64,000 nt of DNA from Opitutus terrae PB90-1. GTDB lineage: Bacteria; Verrucomicrobiota; Verrucomicrobiia; Opitutales; Opitutaceae. The translations under genes and the position numbers were made by a program. The stretch spans positions 2,923,001-2,987,000 of the forward strand of contig NC_010571.1 of NCBI RefSeq assembly GCF_000019965.1. The letters are read 5' to 3'. This document shows positions 10,777 to 64,000 of the stretch, piece by piece. Numbering within the stretch: position 1 is the first letter of the stretch; each line of letters opens with the position of its first letter. The notes beneath the pieces are model-generated. The model saw only the letters and a program-made list of their open reading frames with translations. It was not told the DNA's origin and ran no database searches.

Positions 10777-10800
10777 CAATGAGGGGTCTTGATGGAGCTG

Positions 10801-10846
10801 CGACGCCCTCGTCGCGCTTTCTCTGAATGACGCGACGAGGGCGTCG
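10801..10846. repeat. Palindromic repeat, CCCTCGTCGCG family
   Basis: Perfect 16-base arms (10801-10816, 10831-10846) around a 14-base loop, the clearest intergenic copy of this family. It lies just upstream of the CRTAC1-like gene, in its 5' region. Confidence 0.9.
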
Positions 10847-10875
10847 CGTCCCCATGACCCAAGCGGGCGGAGGAG

Positions 10876-10922
10876 GTAGCCGGGGTCGATGACCCCGGCC
10901 CGGCCTCAGCGAGGCCGGCTAC
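10876..10922. repeat. Palindromic repeat, GTAGCCGGG family
   Basis: An outer palindrome with ends GTAGCCGG/CCGGCTAC enclosing two inner hairpins (GGGGTC-ATGACCCC type and GGCCTC-GAGGCC type). Related copies occur at 46179, 47727 and 49420. Confidence 0.85.
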
Positions 10923-15343: not shown

Positions 15344-18300
15344 ATGAAACGACCTTTGCCGCTTTTCGGTTTTGCCGCGTTGCTTCTCACCGTCGTCGCC
15401 GGTTCCCCCGGCGCGCTTCACGCGCAGCCCGCCGGCGCCGTGCTCGAGATGGGATTCCGCAACCCGCCGGACTCCGCCAAGCCGCGCACGTGGTGGCATT
15501 GGACGATGAGCAACGTCACGAAGGACGGCATCACAAAAGACCTGGAATGGATGAAGCGCGTGGGCCTCGGCGGCTTTCAACTCGCCGACGTGAACGTCGG
15601 GCGCGGGCAGGAGGTGGAACCGAAGACGCCATATGGCACGCCGGCTTGGTATGACGCGGTCCGGCACGCGGCGGCCGAAGCCGATCGGCTCGGACTCGAG
15701 ATGTCGATCTTCAGCTCGCCAGGATGGAGCGAGACCGGGGGACCGTGGGTGAAGCCGGAGCAGGCGATGAAGAAGCTCGTGTGGAGCGAAACCGTCGTCG
15801 ACGGCGGGAAACGTTTTTCCGGCAAGCTCGCGTCGCCGCCGAACGCGATCGGGCAGATCCGCGACAGCGGCGCGAGCTACTACACCAGCGATTCAACGTC
15901 GGCGCCGTTTTATGCCGATGCGGCCGTGGTCGCCTATCGCGTGCCCGCCGCGGAGCCGCGGATGGCCGATCTGCACCCGCGGGTGTCGACCCACGAAGGC
16001 GAGATCGATGGTACGGCCTTACTCGACGACAAGCTCGCGACGCTGCTCACCGTCAAGGCACCGGAGGGTGGCGCGGCCTGGGTGCAGTTCGAGTTCGCCG
16101 AACCGTTCACTGCGCGGGCGATTACGCTCGGCGGCAGCGGCGGCAGCGCGAAGGGGATTCCGGTGGGCCGGGTCCTGGCGAGCGACGATGGCGTGTCGTT
16201 TCGCCCGCTGGTCACGCTGCCGGGTGCACAACTCTATCGGCAGGGAATGGTGCGGACGTTCGCGTTGCCCGAAACCACGGCGCGGTTTTATCGGATCGAG
16301 CTGACGGGCGCGCCGCTCGGACCCGCGCAGACGATGAGCCAGGCGCCAAGCGCGCCGGCGAAGGAATATGTGCTGAGCGAAGCCGTGCTGCACTCCGGTG
16401 CCCGCGTGCATCGCTGGGAGGAGAAGGCGGGATTCAGTTTCCTCTTCGAGTATGAAACAGTCGCGACGCCCGAGATCGCGCCGGCGCTGGCTGTCGCACC
16501 AGACGACCTTGTCGATCTCACGGCGAAGCTGCAGCCGGATGGTTCGCTCGAATGGGATGCGCCGCCCGGCCGCTGGACGATTCTGCGGCTCGGCTATTCG
16601 CTGACGGGCGCAAAGAATCGGCCCGCCACGCCGGCCGGCACGGGTTACGAGGCCGACAAGCTCAGCCGGCGGCACATGGAAGCTTACGTGCGCGGGTATT
16701 TCGATCCGCTGCAGCAGGCGCTGGGGCCATTGTTCGGAAAGAGCCTGCGCTACGTCACGATGGACGGCTGGGAGGCGGGCACGAACAACTGGACCGACGA
16801 ATTGCCCGCGGAGTTTCGGCGGCGGCGTGGCTACGCGCCGACGCCCTATTTGCCGGCGCTTACCGGCCGGATCGTTGGCAGTGCGGACGTGAGCGATCGG
16901 TTCCTTTGGGATTTCCGCCGTACGCTCGCTGACCTCTGGGCCGAGGCGCACTACGGTACGATGGCGGAGAAGCTGCGCGAGCGCGGAGTCGGCATCTACG
17001 CCGAGGCGGCCGGCGTGTCGCTCGAAATGCCGGAGGACACCCTGCTGAACAAGAGCAAGGTTGAGATCCCGATGGGCGAGTTCTGGGTGCGCGATCTGCA
17101 TCCGCGGTTGATGTACCTGCAGGACATCCGGGGCGCTGCATCGGCGGCGCACGTTTACGGCAAACCGCTCGTGGCGGCGGAGGCGTTCACCGGCGGCGGC
17201 TATGAGGCGCCGGCGACGCTGAAGAATGTCGGCGACACCTGGCTCGCGCAGGGCGTGAACCGCATCGTGTTCCACACCTCGGCGCACCAGCCGCTGGATA
17301 CGAAGCCCGGCAACATGATGGTTGGAACCCATCTGCACCGAAACATCACCTGGGCCGAGCAGGCGCGACCAATCATGACGTATTTCGCGCGCAGCTGCTT
17401 CCTGCTGCAGCAGGGCCGATTCGTGGCCGACCTCGCTTACTTGCTTGACGAAGGCGCACCCTCGACGCCGCCGATCTGGGGCGCTGGCACGCGACCGACG
17501 CCGCCGGCGGGCTACGATTACGACTTCGTCAACGCGGACGTGCTCCTTCATCGGTTCTCCAGCGGCGGGAACGGCAAGCTGATGCTCCCGGATGGAATGA
17601 GTTATCGCGTGCTCGTGTTGCCCGATACCGACCGGATGCGGCCGGAGCTGGTGCGCAAGCTGCGCGAACTCGTGCTCGGCGGCGCCACGATCGTGGGCCG
17701 CAAACCGACGCGCTCACCGAGCCTCGCTGATTATCCGCGGGCGGACGCGGAGGTGCACGCGCTCGCCGCCGAGCTGTGGGGCGATCTCGACGGGGTGAGC
17801 CGCACGGTCCGCCGGGTGGGGAAAGGCACAGTCGTGTGGGGTCTGCCGCGCGAACGCGTGCTTTCGGATGAGGGCATCGCGAAGGATTTCGACGCGGACC
17901 AGCCGCTTGACGCGGAATTCGCGTGGCTGCACCGGAGGGCGGGCGAAATCGATCTCTATTATGTCGCGAACCTCACGGACCGTACGCAGGCGATTGACGC
18001 GCGGTTCCGCGTCAGCGGCCGGGAAGCGGAGCTCTGGCATCCCGACACCGGCAAGATCGAGCGGGTCGGTTTCACGCAGGCGGACGGCCGGACCACGGTG
18101 CCGCTCCGACTCGCGGAACGGGACGCCGTGTTCGTCGTGTTTCGGCGTGCGACCACCGCGTCGTCGTCGCGTGCTGCGTCCAACGAAGCGCTGACCGTCC
18201 TCGCGCAGCTCAACGGTTCTTGGGACGTGAGTTTTCCGCCAAACCGGGGCGCGCCGGCACGAGTCGAATTGCCGCAGCTCGGCTCGTGGACCGAGCATCC

Positions 18301-20038
18301 GGATGACGGCATCAAGTATTTCTCAGGCACCGCAACGTATCGGAAGACGATCGCCGCGCCGCGTGAATGGTTCGGCGCAGACAGCGGCGTTTTTCTCGAT
18401 CTCGGACGGGTGGGCGATCTTGCAACGGTGCGGGTGAATGGCGTCTCACTCGGAGTTTTCTGGAAGCCGCCGTATCTCGTCGACGTGTCGGGCGCGCTTC
18501 GTCCCGGCGAGAACCAGCTCGAGATTGAGGTCACGAACCAATGGACGAATCGGCTAATCGGCGACCGCAGTGTGCCTCTCGAAAAACGTGTGCTCGGCGA
18601 TGCCTCCGTGCAGCCGCCAGGCTGGGGACGATTCGGTTCGCAGTCACCGGTGCCATCGGGACTGATCGGGCCGGTGCGCTTCGTCTCGAGACCGCTGCTT
18701 CGGGTCGCCGACAGTCCCGACGCGAGCATCGCCGGGATTCCCGTCAACTACACCGAGGCGAAGGCGGGTTCCGACTCCGGGGGGGTGTTGGGGACGCGAC
18801 GCCCTCGTCGCGTTTCCGGTGACAGCCGCGACGAGGGCGTCGGGACTCCAGATAGTCCCGACGAGCCGCGCTACACGCTGCCGGATCCACTCGCGCTCGC
18901 GAACGGGCAACCGGTGCGTGATGCGCAGACGTGGCTCGAGCAGCGGCGACCGGAACTCGTGCGGCTCTTCGAGCAAAACCAGTTCGGCCGCGCGCCGGGC
19001 CGGCCGGCCGGCCTGAATTTCGACGTGTTTGAAAAGGAAGCGCCGGCGTTTGGCGGGAGAGCGATTCGGCGACAGGTCACGATCCGATTTTCCAAGCAAC
19101 CGGACGCACCGCAGCTCGACGTGTTGCTCTATTTGCCGGCGCCCGCGACGAAACCGGTGCCGGTGGTGCTCAATGTCAGCTTCACGGCGAACAACCTCAC
19201 CGTTGATGATCCGGGCGTGAAGCCCGGGTGGGTGTGGAACCCGCAGGAGAAACGGCGCGTTCCGGCCGACGCGAGCGCTCGCCGATTCGGCCGGCTCGAC
19301 GTGATGGCGGCGATTGAGCGCGGGCTCGGCGTGGCCACCCTCAACTATGGCGACATCGATCCCGATGCGCCCGGCGCGATCGCGCAAGGTGTGCGTCAGC
19401 TTTACCTGAAGCCGGGACGGACCGCGCCGGCGGCGGACGAGTGGGGCACCATTGCGGCCTGGGCCTGGGGCATCAGCCGCGTGGTGGACTACTTCGAAAC
19501 GGACGCCGACGTCGATGCGCAACGCGTCGCGATCGTAGGCGTCTCACGGCTGGGCAAAACGGTGTTGTGGGCGGGTGCGTCCGATCCGCGGATCGCGCTG
19601 GTGATTGCGAGCTGCTCCGGCGAAGGCGGTGCAGCGCTCAGCCGCCGCAACTACGGGGAAACGATCGCGCACCTCGTCGCGCCGACGCGCTATCCGTACC
19701 AGTTCGCCGGAAACTATCAGACCTGGGCAACGCGGGTGGACGAGTGTCCGATCGATGCGCACGAACTCGTGGCATTGATCGCGCCGCGTCCGCTCCTGCT
19801 GCAGACGGGCACCACCGACATCTGGTCGGATCCGAAGGGCGAATACCTGGCCGCACTCGCCGCGACGCCGGTGTACCGATTGTTCGGCAAAGCCGGACTC
19901 GAGGTGGAGCAGATGCCCGTGCCCGGCGTGCGGGTGGGAGATACGCTCTCCTACTACATGCACGAAGGCGGCCACGGCCTGGTGCCCGGCGACTGGGAGG
20001 TGTTTCTCGACTTCGTGCGGGAGCACCTCGAGCGGTAG
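15344..20038 (+). CDS. GH106 rhamnosidase-like / CE15 glucuronoyl esterase fusion
   Basis: A 1564-residue exported protein (signal 1-27). Residues ~30-1120 match GH106 alpha-L-rhamnosidases: an early PRTWWHWTMSNVTKDG, a TIM barrel with YVTMDGWEAGTNNWT and LVAAEAFTGGG, and a C-terminal galactose-binding-like module (GRVGDLATVRVNGVSLG). Residues ~1170-1564 form a CE15 domain with nucleophile GVSRLGK (Ser1401), SCSGEGGAAL and HEGGHG (His1544). The linker (about 1150-1175) is made largely by a translated palindromic repeat. Combining both activities in one chain suggests attack on rhamnose/uronate-rich pectin or glucuronoxylan. Both halves keep their catalytic motifs, so the fusion is probably functional; a frameshift-free junction supports this. 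Confidence 0.87.
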   Translation: MKRPLPLFGFAALLLTVVAGSPGALHAQPAGAVLEMGFRNPPDSAKPRTWWHWTMSNVTKDGITKDLEWMKRVGLGGFQLADVNVGRGQEVEPKTPYGTPAWYDAVRHAAAEADRLGLEMSIFSSPGWSETGGPWVKPEQAMKKLVWSETVVDGGKRFSGKLASPPNAIGQIRDSGASYYTSDSTSAPFYADAAVVAYRVPAAEPRMADLHPRVSTHEGEIDGTALLDDKLATLLTVKAPEGGAAWVQFEFAEPFTARAITLGGSGGSAKGIPVGRVLASDDGVSFRPLVTLPGAQLYRQGMVRTFALPETTARFYRIELTGAPLGPAQTMSQAPSAPAKEYVLSEAVLHSGARVHRWEEKAGFSFLFEYETVATPEIAPALAVAPDDLVDLTAKLQPDGSLEWDAPPGRWTILRLGYSLTGAKNRPATPAGTGYEADKLSRRHMEAYVRGYFDPLQQALGPLFGKSLRYVTMDGWEAGTNNWTDELPAEFRRRRGYAPTPYLPALTGRIVGSADVSDRFLWDFRRTLADLWAEAHYGTMAEKLRERGVGIYAEAAGVSLEMPEDTLLNKSKVEIPMGEFWVRDLHPRLMYLQDIRGAASAAHVYGKPLVAAEAFTGGGYEAPATLKNVGDTWLAQGVNRIVFHTSAHQPLDTKPGNMMVGTHLHRNITWAEQARPIMTYFARSCFLLQQGRFVADLAYLLDEGAPSTPPIWGAGTRPTPPAGYDYDFVNADVLLHRFSSGGNGKLMLPDGMSYRVLVLPDTDRMRPELVRKLRELVLGGATIVGRKPTRSPSLADYPRADAEVHALAAELWGDLDGVSRTVRRVGKGTVVWGLPRERVLSDEGIAKDFDADQPLDAEFAWLHRRAGEIDLYYVANLTDRTQAIDARFRVSGREAELWHPDTGKIERVGFTQADGRTTVPLRLAERDAVFVVFRRATTASSSRAASNEALTVLAQLNGSWDVSFPPNRGAPARVELPQLGSWTEHPDDGIKYFSGTATYRKTIAAPREWFGADSGVFLDLGRVGDLATVRVNGVSLGVFWKPPYLVDVSGALRPGENQLEIEVTNQWTNRLIGDRSVPLEKRVLGDASVQPPGWGRFGSQSPVPSGLIGPVRFVSRPLLRVADSPDASIAGIPVNYTEAKAGSDSGGVLGTRRPRRVSGDSRDEGVGTPDSPDEPRYTLPDPLALANGQPVRDAQTWLEQRRPELVRLFEQNQFGRAPGRPAGLNFDVFEKEAPAFGGRAIRRQVTIRFSKQPDAPQLDVLLYLPAPATKPVPVVLNVSFTANNLTVDDPGVKPGWVWNPQEKRRVPADASARRFGRLDVMAAIERGLGVATLNYGDIDPDAPGAIAQGVRQLYLKPGRTAPAADEWGTIAAWAWGISRVVDYFETDADVDAQRVAIVGVSRLGKTVLWAGASDPRIALVIASCSGEGGAALSRRNYGETIAHLVAPTRYPYQFAGNYQTWATRVDECPIDAHELVALIAPRPLLLQTGTTDIWSDPKGEYLAALAATPVYRLFGKAGLEVEQMPVPGVRVGDTLSYYMHEGGHGLVPGDWEVFLDFVREHLER
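18797..18842. repeat. Palindromic repeat translated in frame inside the GH106-CE15 gene
   Basis: Perfect 16-base arms (18797-18812 and 18827-18842), identical to the arms of the intergenic copy at 10801. Here the element encodes about residues 1152-1167 (GTRRPRRVSGDSRDEGV region) in the linker between the two enzyme domains, without breaking the frame. Confidence 0.92.
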
Positions 20039-46178: not shown

Positions 46179-46300
46179 GTAGCCGGGCTCGCTGAGCCCG
46201 GCGCCGGGGTCAGCGACCCCGGCTACATGGAGCCGCGGCGCTCGCGCCGCGGCCCGGGAGAACCGCCGCGCGATGGACGCGACGAGGGCGTCGCGTCTCA
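46179..46300. repeat. Cluster of palindromic repeats
   Basis: Contains a GTAGCCGGG...CCCCGGCTAC unit like those at 10876 and 49420, then a GCCGCGGCGCTCGCGCCGCGGC hairpin, and a half of the CCCTCGTCGCG family (46278-46295). Confidence 0.8.
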
Positions 46301-49396: not shown

Positions 49397-49419
49397 GGCC
49401 CAGCGATCGGGGATCGGTG

Positions 49420-49525
49420 CAGCCGGGCTCGACGAGCCCGGGCCGGGGTCACCGACCCCGGCTACATGGAGCCGCGGCGCCCAGGGAAGCCGACCGAAAG
49501 ACGCGACGCGGGCGTCGCGTCTCCA
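49420..49525. repeat. Palindromic repeats, two families
   Basis: A GCAGCCGGGCTCG...CCCCGGCTAC unit followed by a GCGACGCGGGCGTCGC hairpin, a variant of the CCCTCGTCGCG family. Located between convergent genes. Confidence 0.75.
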
Positions 49526-62331: not shown

Positions 62332-64000
62332 ATGCACGTCCTTCCTTTGGCCACGGCCCCGTGGCGTTTTCGGGATGCCACCCAAGGATCCGTCTGGCGC
62401 GATGCGATCGTGCCGGGCTGCGTGCATCGCGATTTGCGGCGGCACGGGCTGATCCCGGATCCGTTCTGGTCGAGCAACGAAGCCCAGCTGCAGTGGATCG
62501 AGGAGCGCGACTGGGAGTATCGTGCGAGCTTCACGGTGCATTCGGATTTGCTGCGCGAAGAAGTCGTCGAGCTCGTGGCCGACGGACTGGACACCGTGGC
62601 GACCGTGTGGCTGAACGGCGCGGAGATCGGCCGCACGGAAAACATGTTCCTTGGCCAGCGCTGGAACGTGCGCTCGCAGCTGCGGCGCGGGAAAAACGAA
62701 CTGCGGGTGCGGTTCGAAAGCGCGATGCACTACATCCGGCGCAGTCGGCCCGAGCATCACCCGCGCGAGATCAACGACCCGGTGGGCCGGTGCGTGGTGA
62801 TTCGCAAACAGCAGTGCCAGTTCGGCTGGGACTGGGGTCCGCGCTTTGTGACGGCCGGCATCTGGCGCGATATCCGGCTGGAAGCGTGGTCCGGCAATCG
62901 GCTGGAGAGCGTAAAGGTGACCCAGGAGCACGAAGAGGGAGCGCGGGGACGCCGCCCGTCTTCCGATCGTGCGGGCAAGATGCCCGCGCTCCCAGAAACG
63001 ACGCGGCCGGGGGCGGCCGCGCTCCCAGGAAACCGCGTGCGGCTGACGCTCGAACCGGAATTCGCGCGGTCGGCAAAAGATGTGACGCTGCGGTGGAGAC
63101 TGACGCTAGTGAACGCCGCGAATTCGCAGGCTGCGATGGGGCCGCGGCGACCTCGCCGCGGCACGAAGGCGGGAATCCGCGCCGAGGGCGTCGCGGCTCC
63201 AGCTTCGGCGCAGGCGGGCGAGGGCAGGGAGATCGTGATCGAGAATCCCCAGCTCTGGTGGCCGAACGGACACGGCGCGCAGCCGCTCTACCGACTTGAA
63301 GTCGAGGCGCTCGCGGCGGACGGCGCGAAACTCGGGCGCTGGGCCCGCCGGATCGGACTCCGCACAATTCGGCTCGACCGGCACAAGGACGAGTGGGGCG
63401 AGTCGTTCCAGTTCGTCGTCAATGGCCGGCCGGTGTTTGCGAAAGGCGCGAACTGGATTCCGGCGCACACGTTCGTCGCCGGCTTGGGCCGCGCGGACTA
63501 CGCGCGCGATCTCACCGCCGCGGCGGCGGCGCACCTGAACATGATCCGGGTGTGGGGCGGCGGGATTTACGAGAGCGAGGAGTTTTATGATCTTTGCGAC
63601 GAGCACGGGCTGCTCGTGTGGCAGGACTTCATGTTTGCCTGCACGATGTATCCCGCCGACGACGCGCTGGTCGACAGCGTGAGACACGAGGCGGGATTTC
63701 AGGTCCGGCGGCTGCGGCATCGCGCGTCGCTCGCGCTGTGGTGCGGTAACAACGAGATTCCCGGGCTCAACCTGAAGGAACTCGCGGATCCGGCGACGCG
63801 GCGCGGCTACGAGGAGATTTTTCATCGGACCTTGCCGGAAGTGGTGCAGACAGTCGGCGCCCGGACGGATTATTGGCCGAGCTCGCCCTGGCGGGGTGAG
63901 TTCGAGAACGCGCACGCCCACGGCGAGCAGTGCGGCGACACGCACTATTGGGACGTCTGGCACGCACGGCACCCGGTGAAGGATTACGAAAAGTATGTGT
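62332..64000 (+). CDS. GH2 beta-mannosidase, C-terminus beyond window
   Basis: A partial gene: 556 codons from ATG 62332, still open at the window end. No signal peptide is evident (MHVLPLATAPWRFRDATQGS), so it is probably cytoplasmic. The N-terminal jelly-roll domain contains WRDAIVPGCVHRDLRRHGLI, EERDWEYRASF, RKQQCQFGWDWGPRFVTAG. The barrel begins FVVNGRPVFAKGANWIPA and contains MIRVWGGGIYESEEFYDLCD; the acid/base is Glu475 in WCGNNE. It would remove terminal beta-mannose from mannan oligosaccharides. Two palindromic-repeat insertions are translated in frame at about residues 204-233 and 269-290. Confidence 0.92.
   Translation, partial: MHVLPLATAPWRFRDATQGSVWRDAIVPGCVHRDLRRHGLIPDPFWSSNEAQLQWIEERDWEYRASFTVHSDLLREEVVELVADGLDTVATVWLNGAEIGRTENMFLGQRWNVRSQLRRGKNELRVRFESAMHYIRRSRPEHHPREINDPVGRCVVIRKQQCQFGWDWGPRFVTAGIWRDIRLEAWSGNRLESVKVTQEHEEGARGRRPSSDRAGKMPALPETTRPGAAALPGNRVRLTLEPEFARSAKDVTLRWRLTLVNAANSQAAMGPRRPRRGTKAGIRAEGVAAPASAQAGEGREIVIENPQLWWPNGHGAQPLYRLEVEALAADGAKLGRWARRIGLRTIRLDRHKDEWGESFQFVVNGRPVFAKGANWIPAHTFVAGLGRADYARDLTAAAAAHLNMIRVWGGGIYESEEFYDLCDEHGLLVWQDFMFACTMYPADDALVDSVRHEAGFQVRRLRHRASLALWCGNNEIPGLNLKELADPATRRGYEEIFHRTLPEVVQTVGARTDYWPSSPWRGEFENAHAHGEQCGDTHYWDVWHARHPVKDYEKYV
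62941..63030. repeat. Palindromic repeat translated in frame in the GH2 gene (first)
   Basis: A repeat of the GCGGGCAAGATGCCCGC/GGGGGCGGCCGCGCTCCC family, encoding about residues 204-233 (Arg/Pro/Ala/Gly-rich, with DRAGKMPALP in the middle). The flanking protein sequence resumes normal GH2 character on both sides. Confidence 0.85.
63136..63203. repeat. Palindromic repeat translated in frame in the GH2 gene (second)
   Basis: A degenerate member of the CCCTCGTCGCG family: GGGCCGCGGCGACCTCGCC then, after a spacer, GCCGAGGGCGTCGCGGCTCC. It encodes about residues 269-290 (GPRRPRRGTKAGIRAEGVAA), close to the translated copy in the GH106-CE15 protein (GTRRPRRVSGDSRDEGVGT). Confidence 0.85.

Follow-up and report, generated by a model that had tools for sequence, protein, structure and literature searches.

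Short palindromic repeats that lie within genes have been described in Opitutus terrae itself. The text of a 2013 paper covers repeats tagged GTAG, of which it names families 17, 19, and 20 for O. terrae, and repeats tagged CGTC. Intragenic GTAG repeats are reported there to be most numerous in this species, with uvrA, DNA ligase, and RNA helicases as examples (PMC3733652). The presence of REPs inside O. terrae genes is therefore an already published phenomenon. The Rickettsia palindromic elements (RPEs) are likewise dispersed palindromes that sit in frame in many unrelated genes; RPE-4 and RPE-6 bear the CGTC tag and, according to the same text, CGTC repeats do not flank transposase genes (PMC3733652). 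In REPINs, two inverted REP units are separated by a short spacer, and REPs of the same type lie on both sides of the RAYT transposase gene (PMC3116915, PMC2817692). O. terrae also encodes OtCE15C, a CE15 enzyme fused to GH106 (PMC10807430), the CE15 part of which, when expressed, acts on the methyl esters of glucuronate and galacturonate (PMC6069808, PMC10807430). The gene analysed here encodes a GH106-CE15 fusion protein of the same kind and contains a repeat that goes without mention in the passages describing OtCE15C in these two papers.

We analysed a window of 64,000 nucleotides from the O. terrae genome, which consists of one contig of 5,957,605 bases. The original prediction held that perfect 16-base arms seen near position 10801 recur in frame within the GH106-CE15 gene, and this proved exact: a pattern search returned palindromes at 10801-10846 and 18797-18842, each of 46 bp with 16-nt arms, a 14-nt spacer, and no mismatches, and the fused ORF runs in frame across the second palindrome without a stop codon. 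Shuffled sequence gave an expectation of 0.00 for a palindrome with arms of this length. Since inverted repeats I4 and I6 of an inverted-repeat search have arms of 24-25 nt that are 88% complementary, the element must be larger than 46 bp. It spans 62 bp (18789-18850) and is composed of two inverted REP hairpins, and its single-stranded DNA folds at -27.3 kcal/mol (z -5.63). The copy between genes lies 8 kb upstream of the linker copy (Table 1).

Table 1. Features of the fused gene, its REP pair, and related copies in the window
Feature	Positions	Strand	Basis
Fused GH106-CE15 gene, 1564 aa	15344..20038	+	ORF; matches the description of OtCE15C in the text of PMC10807430
GH106 domain, aa 40-911	15461..18076	+	PF17132, 1040.7 bits
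Fusion joint, ~aa 1120-1121: GH106-derived sequence ends and mature-CE15-derived sequence begins	18701..18706	+	Alignment with fused L032 and unfused L033, L034, L037, L067, and L069
CE15-derived N-terminal segment 5' of the insert, ADSPDASIAGIPVNYTEAKAGS	18707..18772	+	Alignment
Insertion of 33 aa (99 nt), aa 1144-1176, in no aligned homologue	18773..18871	+	Alignment
REP unit 1, exact family consensus CGCGACGAGGGCGTCGCGTCCCCA on the minus strand	18789..18812	-	Comparison with family consensus
REP-pair spacer, 14 nt, commonest spacing genome-wide in sampled copies	18813..18826	.	Pattern search
REP unit 2, CGCGACGAGGGCGTCGGGACTCCA, two tail changes relative to consensus	18827..18850	+	Comparison with family consensus
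Secondary hairpin GTCGGGACT-CCAGAT-AGTCCCGAC, altered tail of unit 2 plus right flank	18839..18862	+	Sequence
Remaining CE15 domain	18872..20035	+	Profile match; alignments to solved CE15 enzymes start at query aa 50, next to the insert
Second copy of the linker REP pair, intergenic	10793..10854	+	Inverted-repeat and pattern searches
Diverged REP-pair copy in frame in a GH2-type glycosidase gene, peptide MGPRRPRRGTKAGIRAEGVAAPA	63137..63201	+	Sequence

The element belongs to a family dispersed over the genome. Allowing up to one mismatch, we counted 166 occurrences of the 16-mer half-site, versus 6 for a reversed-pattern control. We derived a consensus from 100 perfect copies sampled over 0-4.84 Mb, all but the last 1.1 Mb of the contig, and obtained a unit with sharp edges, [AC]-CGCGACGAGGGCGTCGCGKCYCCA, that forms a stem-loop with an AGGG loop. 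The base 5' of the core is A in 56 and C in 42 of these copies, while the K position is T in 52 and G in 43, matching proportions that are expected if the two positions pair. Of the 100 copies, 54 have an inverted partner on the 5' side and 11 on the 3' side, most commonly at a distance of 14 nt. The family thus has the short hairpin in many dispersed copies that characterizes REPs as well as the inverted units with a short spacer that characterize REPINs, an arrangement that 18789-18850 fits.

These properties bear on whether the palindrome could be a coincidence of codon usage, as might be imagined for a charged linker encoded in a GC-rich genome. We give this idea next to no credence, given that none is expected in shuffled sequence and that the linker copy has the exact consensus tails and the spacing of a dispersed family; the shuffles and the genome-wide family together rule out a chance or codon-usage origin.

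The unit falls outside both tagged superfamilies as the text of PMC3733652 describes them. The GTAG superfamily has GTAG or the variants GYRG, GTMG, or GTGG at one end, whereas the conserved end here is TGGRG, with G at the second tag position in 98% of copies, where T or C would be expected, and with the fifth base, T, kept in 96%. The CGTC superfamily has an unpaired CGTC tag by the stem, but in our unit the pre-stem positions are not conserved, and the sole feature common to the two is a CCA tail at the other end. Like the GTAG repeats of PMC3733652, the TGGRG units come from the same species and occur as REPs and REP dimers within genes, among them those for DNA ligase and RNA helicases, and outward-tailed dimers are common in both; the TGGRG end of the linker unit is the difference. 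The TGGRG type may be additional to the O. terrae REPs described in that paper's text. GTAG-type REP pairs (GTAGCCGGGCTCGCTGAGCCCGGC and relatives) adjoin TGGRG copies at 10876-10922, 46179-46226, and 49419-49465 of the window.

In two relatives, a RAYT-type Y1 transposase gene has the TGGRG REP on both sides: G001, of the same genus (L181/L208), and G024 (L197/L207). These genes are flanked by REPs of this one type, as described for RAYTs and their REPINs (PMC3116915, PMC2817692), and control DNA contained no TGGRG REP in 267,549 bp. Flanking of a RAYT gene in two relatives, together with the lack of a CGTC tag, also distinguishes the TGGRG REP from the RPEs. None of the Y1 genes examined in O. 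terrae is flanked by TGGRG REPs, and the closest, 43% identical, has GTAG REPs as its flanks; the TGGRG copies of O. terrae may accordingly be orphans or have been moved by another RAYT. Two differences from the described REPINs (PMC3116915, PMC2817692) are, then, that we found no cognate RAYT in O. terrae and that the linker copy lies in coding sequence. The linker feature is very probably a REPIN, a short non-autonomous element made of two inverted REP hairpins with outward-pointing tails, such as RAYT (HUH/Y1) transposases mobilize, and we infer that a RAYT moved it. Elsewhere in the genome, a Y1 transposase gene at L236 (region of G000:C1:5903715) has inverted GTAGGGCGCGTTATCCTTAACGCGCC hairpins as flanks and is apparently another RAYT with a separate REP family.

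A major question was whether the repeat had any part in the fusion. When fused and unfused homologues were aligned, as the original prediction had proposed, the fused protein of G063 and the unfused relatives all lacked it. The G063 homologue (L032, Opitutaceae) has a matching joint, with the motif RPxxRVAD[ST]PD common to O. terrae and G063 (RPLLRVADSPDAS and RPVNRVADTPDGS). Past the joint, the G063 sequence continues uninterrupted (IPVNYTATRIADYDLPDPL; an unfused example reads IPVNYTEAKTGSYTLPDPL). Only in O. terrae is GS separated from YTLP, by 33 residues (NYTEAKAGS, the insert, and then YTLPDPL), so that the insert is present in one of ten aligned proteins and absent from the nine homologues. 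Sequence inherited from CE15 flanks the repeat on both sides, with about 24 residues of it separating the repeat from the joint upstream. The view that the repeat forms part of the interdomain linker holds, but not that it sits exactly where the two enzymes meet. In the unfused L033, L034, and L037 (relatives G023, G029, and G043), a stop codon separates the neighbouring GH106 and CE15 genes, and CE15 starts with what appears to be a signal peptide of its own.

One reading of the locus is that the repeat, or recombination between its two copies, joined the GH106 and CE15 genes and then remained as the linker. The interdomain location and the second copy 8 kb upstream would suit it, but we regard it as very improbable: CE15-derived sequence occurs on either side of the repeat, the REP has zero copies at up to two mismatches over 24 bases in the genome of G063, where the joint is nonetheless matched, and no REP lies between the genes of the aligned unfused GH106/CE15 pairs. 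The repeat had been suggested to have created or lengthened the fusion; lengthening is borne out by the 33 residues peculiar to O. terrae, and creation is contradicted by the G063 joint without a repeat and by the interrupted CE15 sequence.

We found no GH106-CE15 fusion beyond those of O. terrae and G063 in 252 genomes of the family and a sample of 384 genomes of the class. The two fused proteins are not sisters in the GH106 and CE15 trees, and AU tests did not reject their grouping (p 0.098 and 0.159), so the fusion may have happened once or twice; were the two fusions independent, the location of the insert inside the CE15-derived part would still speak against a role in the joint. Because the trees accommodate independent fusions and the insert is wholly within CE15-derived sequence, the REP pair could conceivably have entered the N-terminus of CE15 first, at a time when the O. 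terrae lineage had yet to fuse this gene to GH106. This order seems quite improbable to us, as the insert is in none of the aligned unfused CE15 genes and as the similarity of the joints suggests one shared fusion, which makes the insertion later.

Our conclusion is that a REPIN very probably entered the disordered linker of an already fused GH106-CE15 gene in frame, lengthening the linker and not making the fusion. The starting point would have been two separate neighbouring genes, one for a rhamnosidase (GH106) and the other for a secreted esterase (CE15), which would have fused first when the stop codon of GH106 and the signal peptide of CE15 were lost. The REPIN would have inserted afterwards, in the lineage of O. 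terrae, into the CE15 part at its disordered N-terminal tail, with a net gain of 99 nt that kept the frame open. Such an insertion would be tolerated owing to the flexible segment and to the hairpin unit, whose six frames are all free of stop codons. We infer the order and number of these events as well as a near-neutral effect of the insertion. Two events that look like one can in this way be told apart, a gene fusion and then a mobile palindrome stretching the linker.

The net insertion exceeds the 62-bp element by 37 nt, made up of 16 and 21 extra flanking nucleotides, and these flanks gave no convincing match in the sampled REP loci. The right flank includes GATAGTCCCGACG (18851-18863), a near-repeat of GACAGTCCCGACG (18710-18722) 5' of the insert, and part of GATAGTCCCGACG is perfectly complementary to the altered tail of REP unit 2.

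In an AlphaFold2 model covering aa 940-1564, pLDDT falls below 50 at aa 1120-1175, with confident domains on either side; the CE15-type domain match lies at the C-terminus (aa 1366-1515). This stretch takes in almost the whole insert, and with the insert the linker grows from roughly 24 to 57 residues. The model suggests that the linker is probably disordered.

The likeness to the in-frame elements of Rickettsia, also put forward in the original prediction, extends well beyond this gene. By a test combining ORFs and codon usage, the TGGRG REP lies in frame within genes at 17 of 89 sampled loci. The family occurs in frame in several unrelated genes, including those for HrpA- and HrpB-type helicases, NuoG, CysJ, DnaE, HemF, MetH, and PurL (NCBIfam names), and an exonuclease-DNA ligase protein has three in-frame loci. 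Alignments of HemF, DnaE, PurL, and MetH with solved homologues break at the REP, and the homologues lack the insert. The family thus parallels, in a free-living bacterium, the in-frame palindromes of Rickettsia, with insertions in the genes for such well-known proteins as DnaE, MetH, PurL, HemF, and a DNA ligase. In four relatives, none of 30 loci passed as in-gene copies with a codon table trained on O. terrae and a sample favouring perfect copies, which makes this negative a weak one.

The in-gene units are biased in frame: 16 of 18 are read as ATPSSR or RDEGVA, two of six possible frames (binomial test 2e-6, the two frames having been named after the data were seen). Because these frames encode small polar peptides, and because the insert mRNA folds at -56.8 kcal/mol (z -3.33), the insert could have been selected, either as a longer polar linker or as an mRNA hairpin imposing a translational pause between the domains. 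We think this unlikely, since removal of harmful insertions explains the frame bias equally well, the first unit of the linker copy is in the unusual Arg-rich frame RRPRRV, and the same element occurs in unrelated genes. The simplest reason for the bias is loss of those insertions that yield harmful peptides. A broader proposal strikes us as unlikely, namely that the TGGRG family, outside the described GTAG and CGTC groups and with its own RAYT in sister species, broadly entered O. terrae proteins as ready-made polar linkers, selection having favoured copies read as ATPSSR or RDEGVA and copies at interdomain places.

Two of the proteins with in-frame TGGRG copies also have, or seem to have, GTAG-type sequence. 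The exonuclease-DNA ligase ORF (L127, G000:C1:4090444-4094803) includes one GTAG-type repeat besides its three TGGRG loci. PurL (L145) has its REP between aa 490 and 535; a further peptide, HVAGVADPGTGLSEAGYKSS at about aa 375-411, is absent from the solved homologue and resembles a translated GTAG REP.
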